Positions 25,005 to 50,941 of a stretch of DNA of 64,000 nucleotides are shown here, piece after piece (within the stretch, counting starts at the first letter, position 1; each line of letters opens with the position of its first letter). The translations under genes were made by a program, and so were the position numbers. The DNA comes from Eutreptiella sp. 'Long Island Sound 2002' (Eukaryota; Euglenozoa; Euglenophyceae; Eutreptiales; Eutreptiaceae): the NCBI GenBank assembly GCA_964036045.1, contig OZ038381.1:130021708-130085707 (forward strand), written 5' to 3'. A model generated the notes under the pieces. It had not been told where the DNA came from and made no database searches. It was given only the letters and a program-made list of their open reading frames with translations.

Positions 25005-25525
25005 AGGACCAACCCGTGGCGGTACCGGGACGTCGTCGCGGGAATACCAGCGCCAGGAGAGGAGAGAACGACGTTCCGGTGGTTGGCGATGGAATTTGAC
25101 TCGCTCCGACGCGAGAAAGAACCCACTACGCCGGTGGGTATTGCAATTCGGAGCTGGAAAGCATCCACAACGGCAGGGTATGCAACTCATCTTCGGGGAT
25201 TGGCGGATGTCGAGGATGAATTGGGGGAAGAGGGACGGCTACCCGAAATTTTGTCGCGGCGGCTGGCGAGACATGTGCAACACGGAGGCAGTGCGAGTGC
25301 AGCCAGAGGCATTACAGCAGCGGTCCGTGCATGCGAGGATTTGCAGTGTGGGATGCAGCGTTCTAGGGCGTGGTGCGGAACCCCCCCAATTTTGGGTGTT
25401 GTTAATATGGTTGGAACCCGGAATTTCACATGTTACATGGGTGCACTATGATGCAACAATGTGCCTTGCATGTTTCGTTTGCTCGATATTGCCCGTTTTG
25501 CACTTTTTGCGATTTGATCTTTGTG

Positions 25526-25680
25526 TGCTCTAACTAGTTAGAACGGGGTTAGAACGGGGTTAGAGCACTAGTTATCGCGTGGGTTATCGCGCGATAACCT
25601 AGTTATCGCGGGGGTTATCGCGGGGGTTATCGCGCGATAACTAGTTATCGCGCGAGTTATCGCGTAGGTTATCGCGCTTC
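25526..25680. repeat. E1 subterminal array, GTTATCGCGCGATAAC and TTAGAACGGGG
   Basis: GTTATCGCG or its complement occurs about ten times, twice as the full palindrome GGTTATCGCGCGATAAC-like unit. It is preceded by CTCTAACTAGTTAGAACGGG words. An almost identical copy is at 28678-28831 in E1b, and an inverted set is at 30495-30618. Confidence 0.95.
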
Positions 25681-25685
25681 ATTTT

Positions 25686-26555
25686 ATGTTTCCCCTTTTC
25701 GCTTTAGCTCTCAAAGCTTTCATATCCTTTGTAATGGCCCTTGCTGCTACCCACGCTTGGTGCGAGCACCATCAAAAGCTCCTTGTGGTCCGTCGCCTTG
25801 GCGGTCCTGAGGGGTTTACGATGGGTGACGCAAACGTGAGGCGCCCCGTGGCGACTCGCTTTGAACATGGTGTGGACTTTGGACTCCTTGTCCATAAGTC
25901 CCCCTTCATGGCCGACAAGAGCTAGAGACCCCCTGGTTCTCAGCAACTACATCTTCGAGTTGCTAGAGGTAAATCCAGGGGTTGCTGGATTCCTGATCCA
26001 GCTGCATCCCGAGGATATGTGGACGCGGTGTTGGAGTCCGTCACCGCCCATGCCGAGAAGGGTGCGGGGACGAAGACGACCCTTTATGTGGGTCACGAGG
26101 AAGAGGAGGAAGTGGAGGAGGAAGTGGAGGAGGTGGAGGAGGTGGGGGCTGGGAGGGGGAAGCCCCACAACCCCCTCATGATTAGTGTCCAGAAGGTAAG
26201 CATCCGACCTGGTAAGGGGAAGGGGAAGTCGGATGGTTGGTTCCCCCAACCCCTCACCCACAACACCCGCCGGGTCTGCACTGACGACCCCGAAAACAAG
26301 CTCCCCATGCACTCCCTTTGCCCCACAAGGGAGTGGGAGCGTGAGTGGTATGGGGTCACCACTCCCAACATTATTTCGGGGCAGGGGGTGATTCTTTTTC
26401 CATTTGGGGCAACACCCCCCCTTATTGGGGAGGCACAGGATCAGAGGTGGTTGCCGCCGAGACCTTGGGGGCCTTTAATAGGGACCCCAATGACCTTGTG
26501 CTCACTGTGGGGGGAAGGCTGGTGGTCAACCACCTCCTCGGGCACGATTTTTTGA
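25686..26555 (+). pseudogene. E1a ORF of unknown function, acidic, one TAG
   Basis: A frame with one in-frame TAG (25923-25925). It contains a Glu/Val run (EEEEEVEEEVEEVEEVG), a basic GKGKGKSDGW segment and WEREWYGVTTPN. It lies where E2 and E3 carry their dioxygenase-like gene (between the left array and the transposase), but no H-x-D motif is visible. Not recognised. Confidence 0.4.
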
Positions 26556-26631
26556 GTGATGTACAGCTGCAAAGTCTTTTGGATGATTTGGATAGGGTGA
26601 CTCTCTCAGAGAAGGCACCCATTTTCAATGA

Positions 26632-27301
26632 TGTAACTACAAAGCCAACCCCAGATACTGTACATTCGCCAACTCCTGGTCAATTCCATGTCGAGAGCAT
26701 TCAACTTGCTTGTACTTGTGCACTGTGTTGGTGCTACGCCTTGTGCATGAATCGTGAGGAACTATCTATATTTTACAGCTTATGGTTGCGTTGCTTTGTT
26801 GTTATGTTGCAATATGTGTCAATGGGTTTTTTGGGTCAAAGCCAACTTTTTGGAAGCCAAGTCAAAGTTTAATTTAAATTGGCGCGCCAACTTGGCACTT
26901 GGTGCGCGCCAACTGCAAAGTTGGCGCGCCAACTCAAGAGTTGGCGCGTGAATTTGGCGCGCCAACTCTTGAGTTGGCGCGCGCCAAGTCCGGTTTTGGC
27001 GCGCGCCAACTGCCCCATTCTTCCTGTTTGTTTGCACCCCGTGCCCCTTACACCCTTCATGCATTCCCTAGCATTGCCTTCTAGGCATCTCAGCACTTTA
27101 TTCTTCTAATGCCTGCAAAGAGCACGAGAGGGCACGAGAGGGGCATGAAACCCGGGGTTTTTCAGGGTAAAAAGTTTCCATTTACACCAAAAAGGAGGAA
27201 AAGATCCCTAGGTAGCCAGTGTAACAACATAATAGACACCCGCCATGATTTGGCTGCATTCCGAAGCAAGTTGGCGAATGTCTCTTGGCTTCGTAATTAC
27301 A
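26632..27301 (+). mobile_element. E2a: short E2 derivative, TSD GA
   Basis: Left end TGTAACTACAAAGCC, right end GGCTTCGTAATTACA, TSD GA on both sides (26630-26631, 27302-27303). The first about 380 bp match the left end of E2c/E2d including the GGCGCGCC array, and the last about 180 bp match their right end. The 670-bp element is an internal-deletion derivative with no genes, nested in E1a. Confidence 0.93.
26877..27012. repeat. E2 palindrome array in E2a (TTGGCGCGCCAA)
   Basis: About eight copies of AGTTGGCGCG(CG)CCAACT in 135 bp. Both the 12-mer TTGGCGCGCCAA and the 14-mer TTGGCGCGCGCCAA are self-complementary. Confidence 0.95.
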
Positions 27302-27726
27302 GAGAACCCCCCCATTGTCGGCAGGCCCCAAGATTCTGGGACCCGCCGCACATTGTATGGCAACTATGGGGGGCCAACCACCACAAGCACAACCCCCACA
27401 AGCTCCATGATCTGCCAATCCTCAAAAGGGTGGCAGAACGTGTGCTGGAGACGGCGAAGAAGACTGTGGTGGGGGTGTCGGATGGAGCTGCACCATCCTT
27501 GACATGGCCGAAATTTCGGGCTATGACCACACACCGCTGCATCCCATGGGTTGCGGGAGTGGTGCAGCCGATCCATTGGAGGTTGGCTAAAGCAGGAGCG
27601 CAGTCTGGTGCCCAAGAGTATGCTTGTCCTGTCATGTTACGACATTTGGTTGAATCGGCGAAATCGGCGGACGATAGGGCGGTGGTGGCTATGGTTTTGG
27701 TTTCGTATGTGTGTTTTTTGCAAGTG

Positions 27727-27958
27727 TGGGGTGTCCCACAGTAAGGGGGTGCATGGTAAGGTATCCTTATGTGAGCCCCCCTTACTATGGACCACTTTTT
27801 GTGGGAGATGGTGTCTCACTCCCTATACCCCCTCAATTTGGGTGTGACGAATGCATTTTGACCCACATCACATTGTATCTAAACCAAAAACGGGGCAAAA
27901 GTCGGGCAAAACTAGTAGGATCAAGCTGGATCTGACCCCCTTACTGTGGGACACTCCA
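27727..27958 (+). mobile_element. M3a: 232-bp non-autonomous element, TSD TG
   Basis: Left end TGGGGTGTCCCACAGTAAGG and right end CCTTACTGTGGGACACTCCA are inverted repeats. TSD TG lies at 27725-27726; the right copy is the TG at 30809-30810, after E1b, because E1b later inserted one base from the end. A second copy of the same length (M3b) lies at 36614. No ORF. Confidence 0.88.
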
Positions 27959-27960
27959 TT

Positions 27961-28500
27961 TGTAACTACGAAGCCAACCCCAGATACTGTACATTCGCCA
28001 ACTCCTGGTCAACTCCATGTCGAGAGCATTCAACTAGCTTGTACTTGTGCACTGTGTTGTTGCTATGCCTTGTGCATGAAACGTGAGGAACTATCTATAT
28101 TTTACAGCTTATGGTTGCGTTGCTTTGTTGTTATGTTGCAATATGTCGGTTTTTTGGGTCGAATCCAACTTTTTGGAAGCCAAGTCAAAGTTTTTTCACA
28201 AGTTGGCGCGCCAAGTCGCAAGTTGGCGCGCCAAAAGTCCGGAGTTGGCGCGCGCCAACTTGCGAATTTGGGCCAGCCAAGGCCCGGGAAGCCAACTTTG
28301 GGACTTTTTCACCGTGTAGGAGTGTTTTCAGCACGAGAGGGGCATGAAACCCGGGGTTTTTCAGGGTAAAAAGTTTCCATTTACACCAAAAAGGAGGAAA
28401 AAATCCCTAGGTAGCCAGTGTAACAACATAATAGACACCCGCCATGATTTGGCTGGATTCGGAAGCAAGTTGGCGAATGTCCCTTGGCTTCGTAGTTACA
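27961..28500 (+). mobile_element. E2b: short E2 derivative, TSD TT
   Basis: TGTAACTACGAAGCC...CTTCGTAGTTACA, TSD TT (27959-27960, 28501-28502). It has a 540-bp left-plus-right-end structure like E2a, with a shorter GGCGCGCC array (28199-28262). It sits exactly at the left end of E1b: its target TT is made of one base of the E1b TSD and the first base of E1b. Confidence 0.92.
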
Positions 28501-28677
28501 TTGGGATGTGGTGTTCTAGGGTGTGGTGCGGAACCCCCCCAATTTTGGGTGTTGTTAATATGGTTGGAACCCGGAATTTCACATGTTACACGGGTGCACC
28601 ATGATGCAACAATGTGCCTTCCATGTTTCGTTTGCTCGATATTGCCCGTTTTGCACTTTTTGCGATTTGATCTTTGT

Positions 28678-28831
28678 GTGCTCTAACTAGTTAGAACGGG
28701 GTTAGAACGGGGTTAGAGCACTAGTTATCGCGTGGGTTATCGCGCGATAACCTAGTTATCGCGGGGGTTATCGCGGGGGTTATCGCGCGATAACTAGTTA
28801 TCGCGCGAGTTATCGCGTAGGTTATCGCGCT
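28678..28831. repeat. E1b left subterminal array
   Basis: The same series of GTTATCGCG palindromes and TTAGAACGGGG words as in E1a (25526-25680), nearly base for base. It ends just before the transposase ORF. Confidence 0.95.
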
Positions 28832-28838
28832 TCATTTT

Positions 28839-30425
28839 ATGTTTCCCCTTTTCGCTCTCAACACAGCTAACCTCCGGCGGTACACCGATCTGCAGTGCCC
28901 CAAGGCCCGGCGGCGGCGTTTGAAGGCGGTTCAGCGGCTGGTGCGAGTTCTATTGGGTAACCCAAACGTTGTGTGTGGCACCAACACCAAAGGCGAAGTT
29001 TGTTTAAGTGGTGGGGCGTGCACTGCCCTGTCTGGCCCACTTGGCGGCCATCTTGCATTAACAGCTCAGGAGCATGAGGCCCTGAGCATGCTACGCATGG
29101 CATGCAGCATGCATCTCTCCCAACGGGCCCTTTTGCGAATGCCCCGCCGTTGCACACAACGGGACCTAAGGACCGTTCGGCAACGGATCATGCCCTACTT
29201 TCCCCATGCAATATCTATGCCCCGAGTTATCGGGAAACCCCCCCCTAGTGGCGTTGCCATTGTTGTTATTTCAGTTGATGCGACTTCCTTGTGGAAGGCA
29301 TCCTCTACCCGTGCGGATGTATGGGTTAATGTATGAGGGGGGGCAAAATATGCTTCGAAGGTGAAGCTATGGGCCTCATGGTTTTGCATGGATGGCGGGG
29401 ATGAAGAGGCTTTTTTGAGAAGCCTGGACATCTCCGCCAACCTCAACCAAGAGGTGAGGGATGTGGAAGAGGACGTTGTCCTCTTTCAAAACCGATTTTT
29501 GACTTGCACTGTCATTTTGACAGGGGATGGGAAGGGGATGCAAGCAATGGGGGGGGCTGGGTCTAAGTGTTGGTTGTGCAAAGACCCCAATGGGATTGTT
29601 GAGCAAAGGGGGGTGGAGTCCACCTCAAGATGGGGGGCATTCTTGAGAAGTGTGACCCCTGATAGGTGGCCGGGGGACTACCAACATGCAGCATGCCGCA
29701 TCCTAAACGGCATTGCAAAGCGCATTGAGACCACCCTTCGGGCCCTCCCCGGTACTTCGGTCCCTGGTACCCCTGGTAAGGCCCAAGCTCTTTCAGCTCT
29801 GCAGGCCGTCAAACAAGCCCTCAAGGATGAGACCTCAGGCATTCCTCTGAGGGAACGTCTCCCTTCGGCCTCGAGGGCCACAGAAAAAGATTTCGATCTA
29901 ACAAGCACCAAGGTTTTCCTAACCTCCCCCCCCTACCAAAGGCAATTTGTGGATTGCCTCAAAGAGCATGTCCCCACAGTGAGGACCCCTGGGGGACCTA
30001 TGTTATGGGTTGTTGTGCATGTCATGGTGAAATGCATTGAGTCTAAGGGTTTGTATGAGCTTTGGAGGGTGAGGGAGTTGTACACTCTAACCCAAGTGGA
30101 ACGCCACCGTGCGTTGACCACAAAATTTTCAAAAGCGTGGGGAGACTCAGGTTGGTCCCCCACCAGGTGGATCCATTGGTGCTTGGCACATTCCACCTTT
30201 TTTGCCGAGAAATGGAGGACCATTTTTCAGTTTTCCTCCATCCCAACGGAGTATCGGCATGGGCCTTACAAAAGGAGGCTCAAAAATTGTTTTAAGGGTT
30301 GGTCCTTGGTGAGGCCAAGTGTGTCCCTCCGCCACATGCACCATTGCATGTCCATGAACGCCCTGGAGCAAGGGCTTTTGGGACTGGAGGCAGCCAAGGC
30401 CTCAGACATTGATGACTTTGTATGA
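28839..30425 (+). pseudogene. E1b DDE transposase, one in-frame TGA
   Basis: A 528-codon frame closed only by a TGA at 29334-29336. The N-terminal basic helix (RRRRLKAVQRLVRVLL) matches those of the E2 and E3 transposases. The first catalytic Asp is in ISVDATSLWK and the second in TGDGKGMQ; CWLC follows 14 residues after it. Then HWCLAH (H-x4-H) is followed by Glu 20 residues later in PTEYRHGPYKRRLK. The C2C/H4H zinc pattern around a DDE core is that of RAG1/Transib and, as I recall, CACTA/Chapaev. The role would be excision and insertion of E1. The start codon is uncertain: ATG 28839 overlaps a possible splice acceptor (CTCTCAACACAG). One stop from intact. Confidence 0.8.
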
Positions 30426-30494
30426 AAAACGACCACACATGCTTTGTGCCAAGTGTTTTGTGTGGTTTGTCCTAGGGAGGGAGGGAGGAGGGGT

Positions 30495-30618
30495 GCGCGA
30501 TAACTACACGCGATAACTACGCGATAACTGAGTTATCGCGCGATAACTAGCGCGATAACTAGTTAGAGCAAGGTGCTCTAACTGCGTTCTAACTCTGTTC
30601 TAACTGTGCTCTAACTCT
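30495..30618. repeat. E1b right subterminal array
   Basis: GCGATAACT words and their complements (TGAGTTATCGCGCGATAACT) are followed by TTAGAGC/GCTCTAAC and GTTCTAAC words. It mirrors the left array in inverted orientation. Confidence 0.93.
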
Positions 30619-31466
30619 TTGACCCCCCCCCAAAAAAACCACCCCTACAATGAGGGTTATGTGGGGAAAGAAAGGGGATGGGGGTTTTTTGAGGGTGCTG
30701 AATCCATTTTTTTAGGTGGTTTGCCCCAAAATTGAGGGTAGGTGGGTGTTCCAGAAATTGCGTTCTAACTAGGGGTTCCGCACCACGCCCTAGAACGCTG
30801 CATCCCAATGGCGGAAGCAGCTAGTGTGCGTGCTGGGGATGTTCGTGACAGTTGCTACGTGGTTTTCTAGAACAACAAAACTGGTGATGAAGGATGGCAG
30901 CGGAGACCTGTGCCGGAGTGGCAGCGGCCCTATGTGGGCCGAGGACAGAGGGCTGGCTCGGGATGATTTGTTGTACCCGGCAGGAGCAGCTCAATTGGAA
31001 AGATCGCTGGCTGACCAGGTGCGCGGAACGACTTGGGCTCGCCACAGGTGGCACTGCTTCCGTAGAGGCGGTGCCGCGGCTTGCTGGAAAAGGAGTCCGG
31101 AACTACCACATTTCAAGAAGTGGGGCCAGTGGGCAACCACAGCCACAGCAATGGCATATGCCCTGGGGTATCGGGATGAGGACATTGTCGCTCCACTTTG
31201 CTTGCCGCAGGTTTGGAATGCGGAGCCGAGATCCCTGTTCCTGGAACCCCAAAAGGTGTGGGGCGACATCATGTATGAGGGTCAGCGACGCGACAAGAAC
31301 AAGCCGGTTTGGGGACGTGGAGAACGCAGGAGAGCAGCGCCCAGCATGTTCAAGAGGAAAAGGTATGCCGGAGAACCACGGTCCGACGCGGCGGATCCGG
31401 GCAGCTCGTCGGACGATTCCCACTCTGGGGTTTCGGCGGACGAAGGTGTTGTGCAGCGTCTAGGTG

Positions 31467-31955
31467 TCCGACAGCCTCCAGGCGTTGTTCCAGCAGCAGC
31501 GGGAAAGCGGGGCTCCGGGCGAGGCGGTGATGCAAGGGCCAGGAGTGTGGATGATGGCGCCCAGTAGAGTGCCAGTGCAAAGCCCAGCCGTGCAGGACGA
31601 CAAGCGGAGCAGTCAGGCGCATGGATCAAGCAACCCGTCAGCAAAAGAGGGAGGAGAGTTCAAGTTCACGGCGCCGCCCTCGGCCAAACCTAGGGCCGGA
31701 GAAGTCAGGGATCCGTGGCGCTCTGCGCACGCCGTTCAAGGAGTCCCAGGAGCCAGGAAGAGGGCGCTGGCTAGCCGAGCCTTATCAGTGCCACCAAGGA
31801 GGACGCGTGGCGAGACGTTGGACGTGGCGCAAAATTCTGGACGGGGAGCCGGTGCCCGAAGGGTGGAGAGACCTCAGCGGCGAGGCCGGACGAGCGATGG
31901 CGAGTCGGGACCCCAACGCAAGCGATCCAGGACTTTACCCCGTGGCCCCGTTAAA
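31467..31955 (+). CDS. basic ORF after the tyrosine recombinase
   Basis: About 160 codons, rich in Arg, Ser, Pro and Gly (RRVERPQRRGRTSDGESG), probably disordered. It overlaps the C-terminal end of the recombinase in another frame and has no ATG at its 5' end, so it may be translated as a continuation of an upstream frame or not at all. Function not recognised. Confidence 0.3.
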
Positions 31956-32254
31956 TGACAGCGGAGTGCGCGCTGTCCTGGGTAATGAAGGAGCAGGGAC
32001 TTAGATGCAGATTTCGGGTGTCCCGGATGGTGTTGTAGGCCTCGGTCCGGGGCTACACTATAAAGGAGGCGTTTTCGTCACTATAATGGCCGAGCTAACT
32101 CGGCATTTTGTTTGGCTGACTGTGAAGCTAGCTTGTGCAGAGGCACTTCTGGTGCATAGGCTCTGGACTTTTTTGCTTAGGTTGACCAGTGTATGTGAGG
32201 ATTTTAGGCTTGATGAACCGATGGCTATTTGTCTCATGGCTGTGCGTTGTCTTT

Positions 32255-32510
32255 TGTAACTGTCATGCTAAGATGTGGCCTTTTTTGTTCACATGGACAT
32301 GTACGCGTTGAAATCACAACTCGTGCGCACTGATTTTCCACACCGTACGCACTGGGTACCAAACGCGCACGCGCCGCGTACAATTTTGCGCCAAACGCGT
32401 AGGTAGTGCGTACGGTTTGGTAAATCGGTGCGTACGAGTTGGGATTTCAACACGTACGTGTCGTGCTTTTAACACGTACGTGTCCATGTGAACATATCTT
32501 AGCAGTTACA
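32255..32510 (+). mobile_element. M4a: 256-bp non-autonomous element, TSD TT
   Basis: TGTAACTG(TCAT)GCTAAGAT...ATCTTAGCAGTTACA with a 4-bp insertion in the left end, TSD TT (32253-32254, 32511-32512). It contains CGTACGC words and CACGTACGTG palindromes. It shares the first eight terminal bases TGTAACT(A/G) with E2. Confidence 0.93.
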
Positions 32511-32808: not shown

Positions 32809-33035
32809 TGTAACTACGAAGCCAACCCCAGATACTGTACATTTGCCAACTCCTGGTCAACTCCATGTCGAGAGCATTCGACTTGCATTTACTTGTGCAC
32901 TATGTTGGTGCTACGCCTTGTGCATGAAACGTGAGGAACTATCTATATTTTACAGCTTATGGTTGCGTTGCTTTGTTGTTATGTTGCAATATGTCGGTTT
33001 TTTGGGTCGAAGCCAACTTTTTGGAAGCCAAGTCA

Positions 33036-33128
33036 AAGTTGGCGCGCCAACTTGGCACTTGGCGCGCGCCAACTGCAAAGTTGGCGCGCCAAGTGCCAAG
33101 TTGGCGCGCTAATTTGGCGCGCCAACTG
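33036..33128. repeat. E2c left subterminal GGCGCGCC array
   Basis: Five copies of TTGGCGCGCCAA or TTGGCGCGCGCCAA-type words in 92 bp, matching those of E2a and E2d. Confidence 0.95.
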
Positions 33129-33195
33129 CCCCATTCTTCCTGTTTGTTTGCACCCTTAATGCATTCCCTTTGCCTTCTAGGCATCTCACTTTATT

Positions 33196-34841
33196 ATGCC
33201 TCCAAAGCAACCCAAGAAGGGCAAGGGGAAGAAGGTGACAGTCACCGACCCCACGTCTGCCCCCGCCAACCCCGAGGTGCAGGCGGTGCTCGACGCCCAC
33301 ATCGCCAACGTCGGCTCCAAGCACTTCCCCGCGGGCTATTTTCCCATCCCCTACACCCTCACCCCCCCGGACGCCGAATCCTTCCCCCAGCTCCCCCCCC
33401 CTCCGCGAACCCCTGGAGGCCGCCCTCTTCGGCAAGTGGGACCAGCCGGGCAATCCCTGCTTGGTCTGGCGAATTGACGCCACCCGCGTCAACTTCGCCC
33501 TGACGAGGGGGGTTCTTAGCAGGTTCTGCTGTGCCGTGATGGGGCGGTGCGCCACGACCCTCGCGGTCGAGTTGAAGCTTTGTAAAGTCACCCTTGAGGC
33601 CTTCAACAAGACGGCGAAGTTGTGCACTGCTGCAGCGTCAAAAGAGTTCGTCAACGTTCTCGCGGTGCAGGAGATGCCGCTTAAGGGTCTCGACCCCGAG
33701 GAGCAGTGGCTGTGGGTGGATCCAGTCAAAAAAAGTGGCTGGACGCACCTCACGGCCACTAACGCCGTCGTGCGGTACCAGACGGTGAAGGTGCAGGCGT
33801 GGGATGCAGTAGCTCCCACGGAGTTCTCCACCAACCGTCGCCTGCGCACCCACATCCCCCACATCACCCACCCCATTCTCTACAGCACCGACGCCCCCTT
33901 CACCATGCTTGGCATGGGTTGCCCCCACCCCTCCTTCCACAACTCCTACCCCGTTGCCACCCACGACATCCCCAACCCCCCCATCGTCACGAAATCTACG
34001 GAGTCTAAGGAGGGTTTTGCCGCGGCGGGCTACCGCTAGTATGACCGCATCATCCCCGAGGATCCGTGGGCCAGATTGGCGGAGCTCGCCACGGTGGAAC
34101 TCAACCCGTCGATGCTCGAGGAGGTGGACCTCCAGGCCCCCGGGGAAGGTGGGGGGCGCTATCAGACGACGGTCTCCAGCGTCCCCCAGTGGCTCCCGGA
34201 CGACCTCTGGCAGGCAGTTCTGGCCCTGCTGGGGTTCTCCCTCCCAATGCTGGAGGGACTTGAGGCCTTGTGCCCCAAGATCATCGAGCGGTGGGAGGCA
34301 GAACCTTGGAAGGGCTTCCAGATCACCCACCGCGATTTTGCACTGTTAGTGAAACAGTCACTGCAGTGCATGGTCGTGTTCATCCCCCTCGATCACCACC
34401 TCCCCCCCGTCCAAGTACGTCCCTCCAGGTGTGCCCGGGCACGCAGGGGGGCTATCACGCTGCGAATCGGTGGGATATTGTTATCCAACCGCTTCGCAGC
34501 GTGACGCTCCTCCGCGGGACGGTGATCCACCGCGGTGCGGGCCTGGCCGGGTACTGTTTATCCCGTTTGCACCTGTGGGCTACCGGTCGCGCATGCCGAC
34601 CGTGGAGCCGGAGAGTGTAACGGAGCTGACGAACAGTGTTCCGGTGATGCCCTCCGAGCTTCTGGCCGAGCAAGCTGCAGTCGGGTCTCCTCTGGGCACA
34701 GAGGCCAGTTTGAACTACAGCCCCCTCGACCAGGCCTGCTGGACAAGCACCCGGTTGCGCACCTGCTTGACCCGGAGCGCAGGCGGGCGGAAGAGGGCGA
34801 GGGGAGTCAGAGTCAGGGCAGCAAGCGGTCGAGGAAATGAG
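33196..34841 (+). pseudogene. E2c 2OG-Fe(II) dioxygenase-like protein, decayed
   Basis: Begins MPPKQPKKGKGKK (basic tail). A frameshift in a C-run near 33400 moves to the frame LEAALFGKWDQPGNP...; an in-frame TAG lies at 34037-34039. The C-terminal half reads ITHRDFALL (H-x-D, 34328), a central VFIPLDHH, TVIHRGAG (distal His, 34528) and, after another frameshift, FIPFAPVGYRS. H-x-D...H in a beta-rich setting fits a double-stranded beta-helix dioxygenase; the TET/JBP group is one candidate. E3 carries a comparable gene in the same place. Assignment is by motif only. Confidence 0.5.
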
Positions 34842-34860
34842 CAGGCACTGGCTTGGCATG

Positions 34861-35051
34861 GCTTTGGCGCGCGCCAAGTGGTAAGTTGGCGCGCCAACTC
34901 CTGATTTGGCGCGCGCCAACAGGGGAGTTGGCGCGCGCCAAATGGGAAGTTGGCGCGCCAACTTACCACTTGACGCGCGCCAGCTCAGGACTTGGCGTGC
35001 GCCAACTGACGAGTTGGCGCGCGCCAAGTCCTGAGTTGGCGCGCGCCATCT
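34861..35051. repeat. E2c internal GGCGCGCGCC array
   Basis: Nine or ten copies of TTGGCGCGCGCCAA-type palindromes separated by CTC/GAC-type spacers of 5-7 bp. It lies between the dioxygenase-like gene and the transposase start. Confidence 0.95.
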
Positions 35052-35368
35052 GCGTGCCGACTGTGTGCCATCTGTGTGCCAACGTGCACCAACGTTCCGT
35101 TGTGTGATCCAACCCGCCTGCCACGTCCTCACGTGCCGCAAGTCTTTGTGTGTGCACCATGCAGCGGGCCTTTGAGCAGCTGGCGCCCTCAAACTACCGC
35201 GACAGGCGCGCACGGCTGGCGCGCCTTCGCGAAGTCGTGGGGGAGATTTTGGGGCCACATTGGCAAGTACATGTCAAACCCGGCCGCCGCCGCATCCACC
35301 TCGTTTGCGGGGAGGGCAAACCCCCCACCCCCGATTGGGAGCTGTTGGCCGCGGCCATTGTGTAGGAG

Positions 35369-35617
35369 TGTAACTGCTAAGATGTGGCCTTTTTTGTTCA
35401 CATGGACACGTACGCGTTAATCTCAACTCGTACGCACTGATTTTCCACACCGTACGCACTGGGTACCAAAGGCGCACGCGCTGCGTACGATTTTGCGCCA
35501 AACGCTTAGGCAGTGCGTACGGTTGGGTAAATTAGTGCGTACGAGTTGGGATTTCAACACGTACGTGTCGGAACTTTAACACGTACGTGCCCATGTGAAC
35601 AGATCTTAGCAGTTACA
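35369..35617 (+). mobile_element. M4b: 249-bp non-autonomous element, TSD AG
   Basis: TGTAACTGCTAAGAT...ATCTTAGCAGTTACA, TSD AG (35367-35368, 35618-35619). Closely similar to M4a over its whole length, with CGTACG and CACGTACGTG palindromes. Nested in the E2c transposase. Confidence 0.95.
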
Positions 35618-36613: not shown

Positions 36614-36845
36614 TGGGTATCCCACAGTAAGGGGGTGCATAGTAAGGTATCCTTATGTGAGCCCCCCTTACTATGGGGCACTTTTTGTGGAAGATGGTGT
36701 CTCACTCCCTATACCCCCTCAATTAGGGTGTGACGAATGCATTTTGACCCACATCACATTGTATCTAAACCAAAAACGGGGCAAAAGTCGGGCAAAACTG
36801 GTAGGATCAAGCTGGTATCGGACCCCCTGACTGTGGGACACTCCA
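36614..36845 (+). mobile_element. M3b: 232-bp non-autonomous element, TSD TG
   Basis: TGGGTATCCCACAGTAAGGG...CAGTGGGAC-type complement ending ACACTCCA, TSD TG (36612-36613, 36846-36847). E2d has the empty site GCAGAGTGGGTGAAGAG at the same place, which proves the insertion and its length. Same length as M3a. Confidence 0.95.
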
Positions 36846-38232: not shown

Positions 38233-38299
38233 TTACCCTTATTTCCACTGTTTCGCTTTCCCACAGCTCTCAAAGCCTTTCTTCGCATTCTCTTTGACA

Positions 38300-41200: not shown

Positions 41201-42034
41201 CATGTGGGGAGGCAGCGGAAGGGGGCACCCCCAGTGGCTGACGTCATTGACGTCGAGGAGGACGAACCCCCCCCCACGCGCAAGCGGAAAGGGCGCCCCG
41301 AAGGGGACACGGGCCCCACCCCCCCCCCCAAAGCCCCGCGTACGGCCACCCCGGGGGAGCGGGCAGGGCGGGCGGAGCAGGCGGAGCCGTCGGGGGGGCG
41401 GGGGCAGAGGGGTGTGGTCCAGGAGTGGGTGGACCAGCAGCGGGCGGGGGCGTGGGAGGCACGCGCCATCAGCGCGGAGGCCGCCAACCGCGACCTCGAG
41501 GCCCGTCTGTCCAGGGTCCACGAGGACAGGCGGGACTGCGAGTCGCGGTTGGCGGACGTCACCAGGGAGCGTGACCGGCTGGCCACCAAGGTGAAGACCC
41601 TCGAGCGTGACGTGGCGACGTTGCGCAAGGCAAAGCCAGCGGCACAGCCAGCAGAGGCAGTGGAGAGGGCTGAGGGTGCCGAGGCCCCCGCCCCCCCGGG
41701 TGACAGGGGGGGGGCCAGTGCTGCCGGTGTCCGGTACCTCCTGGCCGGCGCACAGGCCTGGCATGCCCAGGCCGAGGCATGCGCCGGCCAGATGTCCGCA
41801 GTGTCCACCGGCCTGCGGATGGCCATGATGGCCAGTGGCCAGCAGGTCGATGTGGACAGCGTGGCCCCGGACGCCCCCAAGGTGACTGCTGCACTGGAGG
41901 AAGTGCGCCGGCAGTACCCCCCCCACCGCCTCACGTCGGCAGCCATGGACCCCTCCTTTGTGGAGGCGGTGGCGGAGCAGAGCTCCCAGGGCTCCGCTAG
42001 CCGGAGCTCTGCTCCCCGGGGGGGGGGTGCGTAG
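38300..42034 (+). pseudogene. E3 2OG-Fe(II) dioxygenase-like protein, two exons
   Basis: Exon 1 38300-40219 (640 codons) joins in phase 0 to exon 2 from 40516 (acceptor TGCATGCAG). Residues about 350-470 look like a double-stranded beta-helix oxygenase: QLPHTDVTTHPD (H-x-D near residue 375), LHRGDMLLMVATSRHHGLP (distal His about 444), then FNLWTPD where a 2OG-binding Arg would be expected but is not obvious. Exon 2 adds Pro/Gly-rich and coiled-coil segments (RVHEDRRDCESRLADVTRE) and ends at 42034. A 1-base shift at the nine-C run 40809-40817 breaks the frame; it may be a real mutation or a homopolymer error. The start is the ATG in TTGACAATGTCG. Possible substrate: methylated bases in the CpG palindromes (inference). 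Confidence 0.55.
40262..40425. repeat. E3 array inside the dioxygenase intron
   Basis: Nine AATTCGTACGAAATT-type units in two groups, flanked by TTCACGTGAA, lie within the 296-bp intron 40220-40515. Confidence 0.95.
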
Positions 42035-42416
42035 GTACCCTCCGGAGCACCTGTCCTTTCTAACCACGACTTTCTAACCACGACGAATGTTATCCTGCCC
42101 CCCCCCCCCCCAAGCATGGGCAGTTTGACCGATATGTGGGGTACTCCCCCCCCACTGTGCGAAATTTTCTGCAGCACTGTTTGTACATTACCCCCTGACC
42201 TGATGTGCCCCTGACCTGTTAACCTGTTAACCTGTTAATTTGCGATTCCTTTCTGCGGAACTGTTTGTATATTACACTGCTGGCTGAGTGACAGCCGGAA
42301 TGACAGCATGAGACAATGACACTGACAATGATAGCATGAGCACTATCCTGAGCTTGCTTTGTGAGGGTCAACGAGGGCACAAGGATGAGGCTTTGGCAGA
42401 AATTCTGTGACAGTCA

Positions 42417-42562
42417 TGTGAAATTCGCACGAAATTCGTACGAAATTCGTACGAATTTCACATTTTCAGAACATTCACACATTTCTATTCATGTGAAATT
42501 CGTACGAAATTCGTACGAAATTCGTACGAATTTCGTACGAATTTCGTGCGAATCTATGTGAA
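42417..42562. repeat. E3 array between its two genes
   Basis: ATTCGTACGAAATTC units in two groups (near 42425-42460 and 42490-42560) lie about 110 bp upstream of the transposase ATG. Confidence 0.95.
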
Positions 42563-42672
42563 TTTCTCTTAATTGCATGCGAATCACAGTAGAGAGAGTG
42601 GTCTGCGGCAGGGGGATGGTAGAAACTTTGCGATGACTGCCTGCCCATTCAACAGGTCCTGTATCTCACATC

Positions 42673-44436
42673 ATGCCACGGCCCAAGGAGCCATTCCATC
42701 TGGTAGCGGATCGTACACGACGGCGGCGCCTACAAGAGCTCCAGGAGGTTGTTACCAAGGAGCTTGCAGCACCCTACACCGTCAAGTACCTGCCCGACAC
42801 GGGGCAAATAGTGCTTACCCCCGAAACAAGAATTGTAGCCACCGTCCAGCCCGAGCCCACCCAGGAGGAGAGGTTGATTATGGCCGTGTGGAGGATCCGG
42901 TCATTGCACCTCTCTAGGACAGAGTCCCGGTACCTGGTGGGGAGCATGACGTACGGTGTGGTATGGGACCAGGTGTACGGCATGCTCCGGCAGCTAGCGT
43001 TGCCGGAGTCCCGGGCGTTTACTGCCTATACGGGTGACGACACGGCCATCAATGGTGCGGCCTGCTACCTACCTGACCGCATCGCCCACCTATTCAAGTG
43101 TCGACCACCACCACCCTCGGCCATCATGCAGCCCGGGGACCGACGGCTGCATTGGTTGCCTATTGCGGTGGACGGTACATCGAGGCATGAGGCCTCGTAC
43201 GTCCATTGCACGCTTGGTGGCACCGCCAGCCCCAACCAACTATCTAGTTGGTGGCTACTAGGGGGCAGTGAAAAGTGGGACACCCTCTACGCGGCCTCCC
43301 AGGAAATTGATTTTGATGATGAGTTGCGCAAGGCCGCAACCGTAAGTTTTAAGGATACGGCAGGGAACGATAGGCAGTCCCTTTTTTTTCTGTGTGCAGA
43401 TGGTAAGGCACAGGTGCTCATGGCGGGCTGCCAAAACTGGAAGGCAGAATCCCCTGGTGCCACTGTGTGTTGGGTCTGCATGCGTAACCGTGCTCTGTGC
43501 CTTGCTACCTTTGGCACAGCAAGTGCGATAGACGGCAACTGGGAACCAGCCGTTGCCATAAGTGCTATATATAGGACCATTATGAGTGATAGGCGAGTGC
43601 CTGATTATGGCCTCCATGGGGTCCTTCGTGTCCTGTTGTGTGCAGTCAACGGGACACGGGACCTAGTTGTACAATTGACAGGGAAGGCACCGGCCACTGT
43701 GGCACGCACCATGCTGCAACCGGTTTTAGATGAGGCACGGCTTGCTGCACGAACTTGCACCCGTGCCTCATTAAATAATGACAAGGCAAACAGCAAGGGG
43801 AAGGTGAGGATGGAGTGTGCTGCTGCCATCCATTTCATGCGCAATAAGGGTTGGGAGAAGATAATAGATGCTTGCATAGAGCAGCCTAGTGTCAGGCAGC
43901 ATCAAGTAGGGGGAAAAAGTTGGGAGTCGGTGTGCAAAACGTGGTGGGAGAATTTTGCAAGCATGTGTGTATACGCGTGGCGTTCCGCATGGTTCTCCGG
44001 GGCCGACTTGGGGCGGCTCCGGAACCATAGCATAGCCATGGGCGCTGCCCACAATGAGCTCCAGTGGGGCAAACTTCTGTGGACGCATCTTTGGATCGAC
44101 CACATGTATTATTTTGCAAAGAAGTGGAGAATCTTGTCAAAGTTCTCCTGCTTTGCCATGGAGGGAAGTCACCGGAGGCTGAAGCGCATGTTGCGCAACA
44201 GCGGGGGCCTAAGCCTCCTCCGGGGGAGACTAGGGGTGCAAGTGGTTGTGGACAACCACACCATTGACAATAGCCTTTGGTTGCATGGGTGGGATGCGAC
44301 CAAAAGGGCTCAACAATGGCAAGGGCCCATAAGTGTACAAACGTATGCAAGCCGCACAAGAAGACGGCTTCTAACCGACATGCAGCACCTTCAGACTCTA
44401 CAGCGGCGGTTCCGGTGCCGCAAGAGACGGACATGA
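42673..44436 (+). CDS. E3 DDE transposase, intact (587 aa)
   Basis: A single open frame from ATG 42673. The N-terminal basic helix is RTRRRRLQELQEVV (residues 14-27). First catalytic Asp 167 (IAVDGTSR), second Asp 243 (CADGKAQV), zinc-type C266-W-V-C269, H315 in DYGLHG, H472-x4-H477 (HLWIDH), Glu 497 (AMEGSHRRLKR), and a basic C-terminus. The spacing D2-to-E of 254 residues and H-x4-H-x19-E equals what I recall for mouse RAG1 (D708, H937/H942, E962). The shared C2C/H4H layout links it to RAG1/Transib and CMC-type transposases; I do not recognise a named family. It should cut at the TGTACCC ends and act through the TTCGTACGAA arrays (inference). Confidence 0.85.
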   Translation: MPRPKEPFHLVADRTRRRRLQELQEVVTKELAAPYTVKYLPDTGQIVLTPETRIVATVQPEPTQEERLIMAVWRIRSLHLSRTESRYLVGSMTYGVVWDQVYGMLRQLALPESRAFTAYTGDDTAINGAACYLPDRIAHLFKCRPPPPSAIMQPGDRRLHWLPIAVDGTSRHEASYVHCTLGGTASPNQLSSWWLLGGSEKWDTLYAASQEIDFDDELRKAATVSFKDTAGNDRQSLFFLCADGKAQVLMAGCQNWKAESPGATVCWVCMRNRALCLATFGTASAIDGNWEPAVAISAIYRTIMSDRRVPDYGLHGVLRVLLCAVNGTRDLVVQLTGKAPATVARTMLQPVLDEARLAARTCTRASLNNDKANSKGKVRMECAAAIHFMRNKGWEKIIDACIEQPSVRQHQVGGKSWESVCKTWWENFASMCVYAWRSAWFSGADLGRLRNHSIAMGAAHNELQWGKLLWTHLWIDHMYYFAKKWRILSKFSCFAMEGSHRRLKRMLRNSGGLSLLRGRLGVQVVVDNHTIDNSLWLHGWDATKRAQQWQGPISVQTYASRTRRRLLTDMQHLQTLQRRFRCRKRRT

Positions 44437-44545
44437 GATGACCTTACGAACCCAGACCGTTGTTGCCTGTGACCGGGGTGCATGCTGGGGGGCTTACTAG
44501 GGGTGTGAGGACAAATCAGGGGGTGCACACGGGTAACATTTGTGT

Positions 44546-44852
44546 AAATTCACGTGAATTCACGTGAATTCACGTGAAATTCGTACGAAATTCGTACGAA
44601 TTTCACGTGAATTCACGTGGATTCACGGCTGTGAATCGGCTACAGGCTTGCCGGGTTCCGGCACCTCTCGTTTTGGGCACGGTGCGGTCATGATGCATGC
44701 TTTTGGGGCGGGACTTTCATTGGATGATGCGTAACAAACCTAGGGGAGGAATTTTGGCCCCTCAAAGCCCTTGAAATGAACCAAGAATATGGCATTTTCC
44801 CCCAAAAACCTCAAATTTTGGGTAAATTCACGTGAAATTCACGCAATTATTC
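44546..44852. repeat. E3 right array (TTCACGTGAA, TTCGTACGAA)
   Basis: Four TTCACGTGAA-type words and two ATTCGTACGAA units at 44546-44636, and further TTCACGTGAAATTCACG at 44824-44841 just inside the right end. Confidence 0.93.
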
Positions 44853-46867
44853 AAACGGCCACTTAACGGCCGTTCACGAAGGGTACACACCTGGGCAGTT
44901 GGGGGAACGCGGCCACGCTGAAGCACAACGCGTTCATCGTGTTCCAGATCGAACAACAGACACGTATGTGATTGTTCAATGGGGTGGAGTACGGGTGTTG
45001 TGCCTTTGGATGTCCCCCACGTCGATGTCGTTCGTTTCACATTTTTTTTTCTGTTTCTGCGCCGTGCCACACATTTGTGCACAGCTGGGTGGCACGCAGC
45101 CTGGGTCAACCGCAAGAAGCCCGGTAGCAAGGATCGCCGAGAAGATGAGATGTACCTCACCAACGTCACCGCATATCAAGTATGCTTGCATGACAAGTGC
45201 CATCATGTTCCGTTTCGTCGCACCGTGCCGGTCCCTAGTCTCCATTTTCGATAAGCTGCTTACCCCACTAAGTGCTTGCAGATCAAGACGAAGCCAAGCA
45301 AGCCCCGGGATCCCGCAAAAGTCCAAGATTGCTGCGCTAAGCCGGATGGATGGTTCGAGTACACAAAGGTTGTTCTGGGCGTGCTGCGTGTTGCATCTGT
45401 ACGTGATTCTGCCCCCTGTTCTACGTGTGTTGCGCGTGTTGCGCGTTCTGCACGTTCCGCCGGTGTGCCTCTCGCTCCGCCTCTGGGGGCACCACCACCG
45501 TGTTACGCGTGCTGCGCGTTCTGCAGATCCAAGCGAACCGGTTGTGGACCTGGTTGGAGGGCGAGGCAGAAGAGAGTGAGGAGGAGGAGGAGGGGGAGGA
45601 GGAGGAGGAGGCAGCGGACGATGGAGACGAGGAGGAGGAAGAGGAGGAAGAGGAGGCAGACGACGACGTGCCATTGACACCCCATGGCAAGAAGCAGGCC
45701 CGAGGCACAGTGAAGAGGGAGCATTCAGAGGACGAGCCAGATGATGTGCCGGAGAAACACTCCTCTTCTGCTGCAAAAGCTTCTGGAGGACAGACGTCAC
45801 GTCGTTCGCGTTCTGCAGAAGCCTCCCCCGGAGACGGAAGGTTAGGGGGCCAAAGAAGGACCCAAGGAGCCCGCAGAAGGCGCTGCAGAAGGCGCTGCCG
45901 CACGCGCGGAGGTCTCAGCAGGGGGCGATGGTGGTTCGGCGAGTGAGCAGGTGCGCGTTGCGGGGTCACTGCTGTTTGCGCGTCATGCCCGTATTGTGCT
46001 GTTGTGCCTCTGGAATCCGCCCTGGCATGTGTTGCGCGTTGTGCGCGTGTTACGCGTTACACGTGTCTCAATTCTGGCCTTCCTCTGGAGCTAGGACAGC
46101 ACCCCGTTTTCCGCGTTTTGCAGGCGCCTGTGCGAGTGAAGGAGGAGCCCCCCGACTCCCCGGAATGCCATGCCGAACCGGAGGGGGATCCAGATACGGA
46201 GACGGCAGCCGAGGGCAAGATGACGGACGGCGAAATCCAAGAAGTGTAGAGGGTTGCGAGGGCTGGGAGGGGGAGGAGGGGTGGGAGGGGGAGGGGTCCC
46301 AGGGGTTTTCTCCCCGCTTGACGAACCGAGTCCGGGATGGCCGGACCCCGACGAGTCCCGGGGGCGGAAGAGTTCGCAGCCCGCTTTGCGGGTCCCCCCT
46401 TGGGAAGTTTCAGCGCAGACAGGCGCTTTTTCTCAACAGGCGCCGGACTGGTGGCGTCGTAATATGTGGTAGCTATACCCGGTTTCTTGGCTGTACGATA
46501 ACGGAGTATTATGGCGATCGGACATGTAGTGCCCGGCGCCCAGCACAAGCGAACTGGTGGTGTCCCGCAAAAAAAGATGCCACACCTGTTGCCTATTGCT
46601 CTGCGGTCGGGGAATCGAGGTTGAAACCCCCCCCCTCCGCTGCAGGTTGCTGTGTGGTAGGGGAATTGAGGCTCAAACCACCCCCCCCATGAAAAAAACA
46701 CCCACAGTGCCCTGTGCTACGTGTGCTGCGTGTTGCCTCTGACTGTGCCTCTGGACTGCGTGTGGCGCGTTCTGCGCGTGTTGCGCGTTCTCGGCGTTGC
46801 CTCCGGTTCTGCCTCTGGAGCCTAAAAGTCAGTGTTCCGTGTTGTGCAGACACACCGCTCTTCAAAA

Positions 46868-48490
46868 ATGCCCTTTCCCACGAATCTTTGGGCGGGTTCA
46901 CTCCCCGTGGTGGAATGTGCAGCAAATATCATGCATGGAGTCTGGCCAGGCCAAACTGAATTAGTCGGGTACACCGAGGATGAGGTGTGGGACCACATGT
47001 TGGCTCCCATCCAGGAATTACAGCGGGCATCCCTCCGGAAGGCGAACCTCTCCCACTTGATCCCCCTAGTACCAAGGTGTGTCCCACTTGATTCTAGCGG
47101 TTCGGCCAATCGATTGTAGTGTTTGCCCCAATCGATGTGGCTTCCATTTCCGTAGGTACAACGCCTTCATCCTCCTACTAGGCATGGTACGGGCCATGCA
47201 AGTAGACGGCATCTGGGAACGGGACGGGTTACTGTACAACCCCTTCATGGCACAATTGCTAAGCCGCAAGCAGTACTACGTCTTGCGCCGTAACATCCGG
47301 CCCGACGTTGTTGAACTACTGGAGGAGTGCAATGGGCAGTGGGCTGGTGCCTGGCGGTTGGGTGGCGCGGCTTCCGGGGATGAGTCCGTGGTGCCGCACA
47401 AAGGCATACGTGCCGGCCCACTGCGGATGCATGTTCATCGCCCGCAAGCCCCACTCCACCGGCATCAAGCTCTATTGCCTTGCCGATGCCACTAGTGGGT
47501 ACGTGGTGGACATGTACCTGTACACGGGTAGAACGGGCACCTGCGGCGGTTCGGCAACAGTGCGGGCGACTACAATGCCCAGCAGATCATGACCATGTGG
47601 GCAGGTCTCCTCCCTTCCGGGACCATCCTCTGTGCGGGTTCCTTTTTTGGATCCCAGGAGCTAGCGTGTGACCTTGTTGCGGAGGGGCACGCATTCTTGA
47701 TGATGACGAAGCGCTCCACGTACGGGGTGGACACGGCAGGAGAGCTTCTATGAGAAGGACAAACCGCCACGTGCACTGTGGACGACGCGAGGTACACCAC
47801 GGTGGTCTTCAAGAACCCAAAGGTGGGTCACAAGCCGCCCCGCGTAGTGCCGATGCTCACCAACGTCCACTTCCCACAAGCCGGACCCGTGCATCGCCGC
47901 AGCGGGAATGAGGTGAACCCGGTGGTCGCCAGCTACCGCCAGCTATCGCGTGGGGTAGATGGCGTCAACCAGATGGCGCTCCAGATGCGCCAGAAGGGAC
48001 GTCAGATGACGTGGTCGCATGCGGTGCGTGCGTTCGTCCTCCGGTATGCCGTGGTCAACGCATACGCGACCTGCCGGTCCCTCGGGGGGGCCCGAACGGG
48101 TACCATGTTTGACTGGCAGTGGGACCTTATCCGGCGCCGCTTTTGTACAGCGGCGGTGGCCAAGCCCATCCACGTGCCGGTGCGGATGCCGGGCTGCCGG
48201 GTGTGTGCCCATTGCAACCGGGGCAAGACCCACTACGTTTGTTGTGGGTGCTGCAAGTGGTACCATGTGGGGTGCTTTGCCGTGGCGCATTGGGTGACCG
48301 GGGTGGTAGAGGCGGATGTGGAGGAGGAGGGCGACGAGGCCGAGGAGGATGGAAGCGAGAGGGAGGAGAGTTAGGATGACACGGAGGAGGAGAGTGAGGA
48401 GGAGGGGGAGGAGGATGAGGAGGAAGAGAGTGAGAAGGAGGAGGAGAGTGACGGGGAAGAGGACGAGGACGTGGAGGATGACGAAGATTA
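46868..48490 (+). pseudogene. E2c piggyBac-like transposase, frameshifted
   Basis: Same gene as at 61637 in E2d. Exon 1 46868-47076, 79-bp intron to 47155, exon 2 from 47156 (YNAFILLLGMVRAMQV). A 4-bp insertion (CGGATGCATGTT) near 47429 and a 1-bp loss near 47530 shift the frame, a TGA at 47751-47753 is shared with E2d, and the acidic tail is cut by a TAG near 48372. Catalytic positions and the C-terminal zinc finger (CRVCAHCNRGK...HYVCCGCC) are described under the better copy. Confidence 0.85.
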
Positions 48491-49110
48491 GGAAGGAGAA
48501 GGTGATGGAGGGCGGACGTGGTGGAATCGTGAACTTCATGGCCGCCAAGCCTCTGCCATCCCTACCCATGGGACCAGTGCGAACCCTGGGGGACAACCGC
48601 GTAGGCTGGATGCCCAAACTCTGAGGACGCGGCCACCCAAAAGTGCGCGCGTGTGCAATAGTGACGTGCTACGCGTGCTACGCGTTTTGCGCGTGCCGGA
48701 AGTCTGCTTCTAAGTCTGCCTCTAGAACGCCGTGATGCGCGTTCTGCGCGTTCTGCGCGTGATGCGTGTGTTGTTTGCGTTCTGCACGTGCTGCGCGTGC
48801 ATCGCGTTTTGAAGCAACACGCGCAGCACGTATTGTGCCGCGCGGAGCGCTTCCGGACAGAAACGTCCCCTCTGTAGACAATGGAATATATGATTGATAT
48901 ACCTCCATGGCCCCCAATTTTGAGCTACGGCTCCACAGTGTATACTACATCGGGAAGCACATCTCTTGCACATTGTTTTACACAGTGTTTTGCACATTCA
49001 TCAAAAAAAGATGGAACAATAATTTCTTCGTGCCAGTTGTGCAAGGGCAGGTGAGGGACGGAATTTCCAGTGACAACAATAGTGTGCAAGTCGATGGTTT
49101 GATCGGTGGG
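48491..49110. other. E2c 3' region, non-coding, GCGCGT-rich then unique
   Basis: No gene supported. 48.65-48.85 kb is the GCGCGTTCTGCGCG low-complexity type seen in the E2 introns; GAAGCAACACGCGCAGCACG forms an inverted match to the preceding TGCTGCGCGTG word. The rest leads to the right array. The same sequence is at 63.4-63.88 kb in E2d. Confidence 0.6.
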
Positions 49111-49245
49111 GGTACATTTGGCGCGCGCCAAGTCCGGACTTGGCGCGCGCCAAATTGACAGTTGGCGCGCGCCAACTTGCCAGCTGGCGCGCGCCAACCA
49201 GACAGTTGGCGCGTGCCAAGTCCGGACTTGGCGCGCCAACTTGTG
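49111..49245. repeat. E2c right subterminal GGCGCGCGCC array
   Basis: Seven TTGGCGCGCGCCAA-type palindromes with short spacers in 135 bp, about 240 bp inside the right end. Confidence 0.95.
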
Positions 49246-49483
49246 AATTTGCGCGAGCCCAGGCCCGGGAAGCCAACTTTGGGACTCTTTTACCGCGTAG
49301 GAGTGTTTTCAGCACGAGAGGGGCATGAAACCCGGGGTTTTTCAGGGTAAAATGTTTCCATTTACACCAAAAAGGAGGAAAAAATCCCTAGGTAGCCAGT
49401 GTAACAACATAATAGACACCCGCCATGATTTGGCTGCATTCCGAAGCAAGTTTGCGAATGTCTCTTGGCTTCGTAGTTACACT

Positions 49484-50174
49484 GTTTCCCTTTTGTTATA
49501 CCGAAAAAATTCTGTGAAGTGTTCCTTGATCCTAAGGTGTGTAGGTATACACGAAGGCTTGCGTCTAAAGCCCCCTAAGTTTTCTTTGGCGTCGTGTTAG
49601 TTGATAGGGCGGTGGATTGCAGAGCAGGACCCTTCCAAAGAGATGTACGGGACACATGTGGATCTGTAGAATGCATTTTGGTCATTCAAATTGCCTGGGA
49701 AGGCCGGCATAATTTTTAGGTTTTATACCAGGCAAGGGGGGGGGGGTTGGTGTCACTTGATCAGTTGCCTTTCGGATGGGCTTTCTCACCTTCTATTTGT
49801 CAGGAGTTGCTGGGCAGGATTGTGCGTGACATTGTACCAGAGGGTGTGTATTTGGTGCATTATTTAGATGATTTTATATTATTGTCCTGCGATCGTGATT
49901 TGTTGGAGGATGTAACGGCGACGGTAGCGACACGGATTCGGCAGGCAGGTTTTTCGGAGAGCTCGAGCTCGATCTAAGAGTACCCCGAGTCCTGTGCAGG
50001 TACTGCAGGCGCTGGGAAAGATTGTAAATTTGCGAGAGCGGTTTATCCAAGTACAACCATTTCTTTTCCTGCAGCTTATGGTGGCGTGGATTCGATTGGC
50101 CACATGTGGTAATTCCAAGAAGCGGTTACATAAATTGTTAGGAACCGTGCAGTGGCACCTTCGGCCTCGTAAAG
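49484..50174 (+). pseudogene. RT gene, 3' part (DIRS-like)
   Basis: After E2c the RT continues in shifting frames: FPFVIPK across the junction, GTHVDL*NAFWSFKLP (first catalytic Asp region), QLPFGWAFSPSICQELLG, then YLDDFILLSCDRDL with the Y-x-D-D core, and RLHKLLGTVQWHLRPRK (thumb). One in-frame TAG and at least three frameshifts. The F-G-W-A-F-S-P and Y-L-D-D-F-I-L-L style is that of DIRS/Ngaro-type RTs rather than gypsy. The gene is cut at 50175 by the next insertion. Confidence 0.8.
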
Positions 50175-50712
50175 TGTAACTACCAAGTAAAGGCCCAAAG
50201 TGCTTCTCAAGTAAAAACCAGGTAAAAACCAGGTAAAATGGGTATAAAATCAATAACTTGCTTTGTGCGTGTTTGCTCGCCTTGCCCTCTCTTATGATGT
50301 GTAACGGACACATTTTCATGCAAATAGGCTGAAACCTGGGTGAAAACGGAGGTGTTTTGCCACTTTTACGTCTCTTGCACCACAACACCACCCTTGTAAC
50401 TACGAAGACAAATGGGTAAACTGAAGTTTCGCTAAAACGCGGTAAAACGCGGTAAATTGAGGTCAAACTTGGTTGAGCGGTGTTTGCCATGTCCCTCCAT
50501 GTGTTTGGGTGGTGGTAGGACAAAACCATGTCAAATTGATGTAAAATGAGGCTAAATCCATGCTTTTTCCGGTAATAGGTTCGGTCGTCATACGTCAAAC
50601 CTGGGTCCCCGTCGACTTTTGTCTTGTGTCGTGTTTGCTCCGTTTGCCTTCGTTTGTCGCACGTCAAAACTAGTTTTACCGCGCGTCAAAACCAGTTTTA
50701 GCTTGTACTGTA
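50175..50712 (+). mobile_element. two further left ends (E5 at 50175, E6 at 50395)
   Basis: TGTAACTACCAAG at 50175 (preceded by AG) and TGTAACTACGAAGAC at 50395 (preceded by CT) look like left ends of E2-related elements. Downstream words differ from E2: AAACCAGGTAAAA twice, AACGCGGTAAA twice, CAAAACTAGTTTTACCGCG. No matching right ends lie in the window. They would be nested outward of E2d, with right ends beyond 64 kb. Confidence 0.6.
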
Positions 50713-50941
50713 TGTAACTACGAAGCTAACCCCAGATACTGTACATTCGAACTCCTGGTCAACTCCATGTCGAGAGCATTCAACTTGCTTGTACTTGTGC
50801 ACTGTGTTGTTGCTACGCCTTTTGCACGAAACGTGAGGAACTATCTATATTTTACAGCTTATGGTTGCGTTGCTTAATTTGTTGCTATTTTGCAATATGT
50901 GGGTTTTTTGGGTCGAAGCGAACTTTTTGGAAGCCAAGTCA

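Follow-up and report, generated by a model that had tools for sequence, protein, structure and literature searches.

The window analysed here, a stretch of 64,000 nucleotides from contig OZ038381.1 of the euglenophyte Eutreptiella sp. 'Long Island Sound 2002' (assembly GCA_964036045.1, positions 130,021,708 to 130,085,707), carries nested transposon insertions of three larger families, E1, E2 and E3, and of two families of miniature inverted-repeat transposable elements (MITEs), M3 and M4. A preliminary description of this DNA had listed ten insertions running from TG to CA, each bordered by an exact 2-bp target-site duplication (TSD), and had taken them for one transposon group. We located the ends by sequence and then checked the TSD insertion by insertion. 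TG..CA termini were present in all ten, and the exact duplication was directly visible in nine. An eleventh insertion, E2d, starts at 50713 and has its right end at 64175, 175 bases beyond the window. The insertions are:

25349-27546, + strand: E1a, E1 family, TSD TG, with a 12-bp terminal inverted repeat (TIR); contains E2a
26632-27301, + strand: E2a, a short E2 copy within E1a, TSD GA
27727-27958, + strand: M3b, a MITE, TSD TG once E1b and E2b are taken out
27961-28500, + strand: E2b, a short E2 copy, TSD TT
28502-30807, + strand: E1b, an E1 copy with a transposase gene and without gene 1, TSD AT
32255-32510, + strand: M4a, a MITE, TSD TT
32809-49481, + strand: E2c, a large E2 copy, TSD CT; holds M4b, M3a and E3
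35369-35617, + strand: M4b, a MITE, TSD AG
36614-36845, + strand: M3a, a MITE, TSD TG
37927-44887, + strand: E3, a full element, TSD CA
50713-64000, continuing beyond the window, + strand: E2d, a second large E2 copy, TSD TA on both sides

The remaining case, M3b, has TG on its left and TT on its right in the present sequence, because E1b and subsequently E2b inserted at its right edge. Excising E2b along with one TT, and E1b along with one AT, leaves TG as the right flank, and the insertion order M3b, E1b, E2b therefore yields exact TSDs for all three, so that the ten duplications described earlier hold throughout. When both ends were shifted by 1-8 bases on the raw flanks, at most six of ten insertions still matched after inward and at most two of ten after outward shifts, against nine of ten at the ends given above. 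By base composition, a 2-bp match arises by chance with a probability of 0.064, and eleven matches in eleven insertions, E2d included, thus correspond to p ~7e-14. Behind the common TG the termini fall into two kinds, TGT..ACA in E2, E3 and M4 and TGG..CCA in E1 and M3; those of M3a form imperfect inverted repeats.

That the 2 bp are a duplication of the target and not part of the element end, as had been proposed, is supported by empty sites. For this comparison, the flanks were joined after removal of one TSD copy and compared with the window and with loci fetched from the rest of the genome, giving matches across the joint for seven insertions. The site of E2a is empty in many E1 copies, that of E3 is empty at 53588-53685 and that of M3a at 52433-52524, the latter match containing a gap of 6 bases at a distance from the joint; four E3 copies elsewhere in the genome sit in sites that are empty in E1 copies (L031, L053) or in the E2 copies of the window (L035, L051). 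Restored frames point the same way at M4b, where the sequences left and right of the insertion align with the E3 protein in a single frame (score 71, compared to 48 for the best of 300 shuffles), with an in-frame stop immediately before the insertion. A 32-codon frame is also open across the joints of E1a, M3b and E2a, although E1a and M3b can also be read through in a second frame, which makes the open frame weak evidence at these two joints. The gene interrupted by E1a and M3b (24300-31970) looks tyrosine recombinase-like by eye; a Pfam search with four of its pieces returned nothing.

Copies were sought across the 2.28-Gb genome (2205 contigs), and TSDs were counted for E1, E3 and M3. The resulting copy lists comprise the best-scored candidates only and are therefore biased toward young, intact copies. 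For E1, 40 matches were listed including the window's own; 20 of the 39 others were fetched, nine of these had the 3' TIR within 9 kb, and the TSD was exact in eight of the nine, the exception (L016, 100-3688) possessing both ends between the dinucleotides TG and TA. The E3 list holds 74 transposase matches, again with the window's own, and of the other 73 we inspected the ends of 19: the 3' end was found in all 19 and the 5' end in nine, with an exact TSD in eight of nine and an altered 5' end in the ninth (L045). Eleven E1 and ten E3 copies were uninformative on the TSD, as one end was out of reach, and the E3 copy L041, whose 5' end carries 15 mismatches, was left out of the count. M3 was listed with 40 matches including the window's own; the TSD was exact in all 20 copies fetched from the other 39, which represent 11 distinct sites because groups of four and seven copies have common flanks. 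One M3 site thus occurs in seven places (L073-L077, L085, L087) and another in four (L068-L071); these copies were duplicated together with another repeat after M3 had inserted. Three further pairs of flanks, read by eye, belong to M4 in L002 (TT), E2 in L018 (TA) and E3 in L023 (AG), and all three are exact.

Counted by site and including the window's eleven, an exact 2-bp TSD is present at 41 of 43 sites. Many copies devoid of such a duplication, the observation that the preliminary description had set against its own proposal, were therefore not seen. No flank match of 3 bp occurred among the eight E3 and 20 M3 copies. An apparent target preference, the lack of C at the second TSD base in 27 insertions, was dropped when TC was found at two M3 sites. 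The 74 listed E3 transposase matches, best candidates as they are, are all 98-100% identical, and 67 of them are free of stops. E3 has undergone a recent burst; as judged from these copies, it is probably a high-copy, nearly uniform family that is active still or was until recently.

The three larger families are connected by their transposases, for which the window contains the following frames:

28839-30425, + strand: E1b transposase frame, interrupted by a single in-frame stop (29334-29336); motifs C(2)C and H(4)H-x19-E
35162-37466, + strand: E2c transposase region, broken, with M4b and M3a inserted
42673-44436, + strand: E3 transposase, 587 aa, intact; D167, D243, C266/C269, H472/H477, E497
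52019-52966, + strand: E2d transposase remnant, lacking the portion that bears the first D; C(2)C and H(4)H-x19-E

The E3 transposase matches that of E2d with E=9e-34 (score 322, compared to 62 for the best shuffle), that of E2c with E=1e-22 and that of E1b with E=7e-11 (150, compared to 60 for the best of 300 shuffles). E1b and E2 match each other no better than shuffles do, and the two families are therefore linked only through E3. A C-x2-C pair and the spacing H-x4-H-x19-E are common to E1b, E2d and E3. The proposal of a real transposon group is thus borne out for the larger families; M3 and M4, which encode nothing, are placed in it provisionally, by their ends and TSDs. A fourth transposase family, at 5837-7466 of L016, is 28-36% identical to E1b and keeps H-x4-H-x19-E, as read by eye, with a degenerate C-x2-C at the aligned position. 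Searches with the E3, E1b and E2c transposases against Pfam models, among them the Plavaka model PF18759, gave no match up to E 10; sequence searches of the PDB yielded nothing credible, and scans of viral contigs gave no outside relatives. AlphaFold models were poor, with predicted local distance difference test (pLDDT) values of 37.5 and 42.5.

Four E1 copies with both ends measure 7.1-7.65 kb, E3 6.96 kb and E2c 9.7 kb after subtraction of E3. Both E1 and E3 have the gene order gene 1, gene 2, transposase. For E3, the accessory genes and palindromes lie as follows:

38122-38231, no strand: 5' palindrome cluster (TTCGTACGAA, TTCACGTGAA); others near 40270-40410, 42435-42541 and 44549-44837
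38294-40333, + strand: gene 1 frame, 679 aa, with an H-x-D..H pattern by eye only; no family match
40340-42034, + strand: gene 2 frame, coiled-coil-like by eye

Palindromes particular to each family are clustered near the ends and ahead of the genes. Within E3, TTCGTACGAA and TTCACGTGAA occupy element positions 196-296, 2344-2474, 4509-4606 and 6623-6901; the E1 copy L015 has ATCGCGCGAT and TAACTAGTTA at 183-290, 2550-2670, 4854-4962 and 6844-6865, and E2c has GGCGCGCGCC and related palindromes at 231-306, 2056-2230 and 9349-9460. E3 contains 37 palindromic 10-mers (shuffle mean 8, maximum 14) and E2c 31 (mean 11, maximum 20); in E1a, E1b and M4b their number does no more than equal the shuffle maximum, and none occur in M3a. 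A stretch is common to the gene 1 sequences of E2 and E3 (E 2.6e-6). Gene 1 of E1, in which no match to them was seen, produced two weak matches to 2-oxoglutarate (2OG)-dependent dioxygenases, both under the cut-off (PhyH 0.021, 2OG-FeII_Oxy_3 0.049); together with the motifs read by eye, they suggest that gene 1 may encode a dioxygenase. Another E1 frame, at 4049-4672 of L015, resembles algal TET/JBP-like dioxygenases by eye; it had no Pfam match up to E 1 and none credible in the PDB.

E2c also holds a piggyBac-like transposase gene (46870-48490; PF13843, E 2.2e-4, narrowly under the cut-off), whose counterpart in E2d (61638-63257) is 96% identical, and which is apparently cargo of E2. A nested, TTAA-ended piggyBac element inside E2 was considered and rejected, since all four TTAA lie in the 5' part, away from the gene. 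Compared with E2c, E2d has an extra ~6 kb (54421-60549) with tandem and inverted repeats at 55100-58883; a short overlap at this insert suggests a TSD of more than 2 bp and hence another type of transposon. Elsewhere in the window, a reverse-transcriptase open reading frame of 923 aa is found at 4134-6905 on the - strand (PF00078, E 4e-25), with a weak aspartic-protease match.

The explanation that best joins these observations, and that we consider quite probable, is that E1, E2 and E3 are cut-and-paste DNA transposons of the CACTA-Transib-RAG1 (CMCT) type, accompanied by derivatives moved in trans. The three larger families would be autonomous or once-autonomous, while M3, M4 and the short E2 copies would be non-autonomous derivatives or MITEs that depend on their transposases. 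By its motifs, the transposase would be an RNase-H-like DDE enzyme with a putative zinc-binding C(2)C/H(4)H insertion. It would recognise the terminal inverted repeats, probably aided by a protein that binds the family-specific palindromes near the ends, cut at TG..CA and join the element to the two target strands at points 2 bp apart, whereupon host repair would generate the 2-bp TSD. Judged by ends, TSD and motifs, the elements would thus work in the manner of CACTA- or Transib-type cut-and-paste transposons with a 2-bp stagger. An accessory 2OG dioxygenase, if this is what gene 1 encodes, could counter base methylation.

The strongest competing explanation is that these are ordinary PlavakaA elements, a lineage described from fungi, merely residing in another host. 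PlavakaA families, which belong to the CMCT clade, duplicate 2 bp of target and have TGT..ACA termini, as E2, E3 and M4 do, and both motifs, C(2)C and H(3-4)H, recur in Plavaka transposases (PMC12730594). E1 and M3, however, end in TGG..CCA, which is absent from the description of PlavakaA consulted in PMC12730594, and besides the failure of our transposases to match PF18759, this model found nothing in the whole genome; its silence is a weak point against PlavakaA, because it was equally silent in all 14 control genomes. The likeness is one of ends, TSD and motifs, and we regard simple membership of PlavakaA as rather unlikely. The likeness does qualify the earlier statement that the termini match no known family, which can hold at most for E1 and M3 and falls for E2, E3 and M4: for this part of the set a described group with the same ends exists. 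In the literature covered, which included few subscription journals and was partly accessible, PlavakaA was the only group found to combine TG..CA-type ends with a 2-bp TSD; TGG..CCA ends and palindrome arrays were not searched for as such.

A second possibility is that E1 and M3 on the one hand, and E2, E3 and M4 on the other, are unrelated types that converged on TG..CA ends and 2-bp TSDs. The lack of a match between the E1b and E2 proteins beyond shuffles and the divergence of the ends after TG speak for convergence and count against a common CMCT-type origin. But E3 is linked to both sides well above shuffled scores, and H(4)H-x19-E recurs in all three families, which makes convergence improbable. 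It is still less probable, to the point of being very hard to credit, that E2 was moved by the piggyBac-like gene carried in E2c and E2d: despite its PF13843 match and its conservation between the two copies, piggyBac duplicates TTAA, whereas the E2 TSDs are GA, TT, CT, TA and TA, and the ends and transposase of E2 are E3-like. That the elements are long terminal repeat (LTR) retrotransposons or solo LTRs, as TG..CA termini might suggest, can practically be dismissed, as their ends are inverted rather than direct repeats, the TSD is 2 bp instead of the 4-6 bp of LTR elements, and the scanned E1 and E3 proteins include no reverse transcriptase.

Within the CMCT-type cut-and-paste interpretation, we tentatively entertain, as a possibility short of even likelihood, that the elements constitute a separate CACTA-Transib-RAG1 lineage, characterised by 2-bp TSDs and by TG..CA termini whose inner bases vary (TGT, TGG), by three genes per element in E1 and E3, dioxygenase-like ones among them, and by family-specific palindrome arrays at both ends and before the genes. 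With palindromes in both places, one binding protein could pair the ends and control the genes. TG..CA ends by themselves do not make a new superfamily. If true, the clade of RAG1-type transposases would extend to proteins missed by current Pfam models. It would also bear on the latitude that one enzyme fold allows in ends (TG..CA or CA..TG) and in TSD length (2, 3 or 5 bp), a question that underlies the origin of V(D)J recombination. The exact nested insertions, the empty sites and the many near-identical intact E3 genes provide material for testing ends, TSD and enzyme.

Among known systems, En/Spm of the CACTA/EnSpm group likewise has clustered subterminal repeats, whereas Transib and RAG1, with their CAC ends and 5-bp TSDs, differ from the elements described here. 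C(2)C and H(3-4)H also mark the DDE transposases of CACTA/EnSpm, but these elements end in CAC..GTG and usually duplicate 3 bp; the ends differ from those seen here, and no 3-bp match occurred in the E3 and M3 copies compared; the 2-bp TSD would fit a minority form, as some CACTA elements make 2-bp TSDs (PMC6004678). RAG1, with D600, D708, C727/C730, H937/H942 and E962 (PMC4914335), agrees with our transposases in C(2)C, in H(4)H and in the distance of 20 residues between the second H and E, and a low-confidence predicted model aligns weakly with both RAG1 and Transib. The KDZ elements (Kyakuja, Dileera, Zisupton) are comparable in being large and possibly carrying a dioxygenase gene, but have TSDs of 7 or 8 bp, compared to 2 bp here, and Kyakuja has CA..TG ends and no TIRs (PMC12730594). 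For the CMCT clade as a whole, the interval from the second D to the catalytic E holds the characteristic C(2)C and H(3-4)H in E1b, E2 and E3, and the 2-bp TSD lies within its range of 2 to 5 bp; its tendency to CA..TG ends is reversed here, yet this tendency is not strict, as PlavakaA itself has TGT..ACA. EnSpm-Plavaka elements have been named in the alga Auxenochlorella (PMC12633428) and Plavaka in Amoebidium (PMC11244446), which places such elements outside fungi already, so that a non-fungal host alone is not new. Because TGT..ACA ends occur only in E2, E3 and M4, we file the group, on present sequence comparisons, as putatively CMCT-type and PlavakaA-like rather than as PlavakaA, and possibly as a lineage of its own, marked by accessory genes and by palindromes particular to each family.

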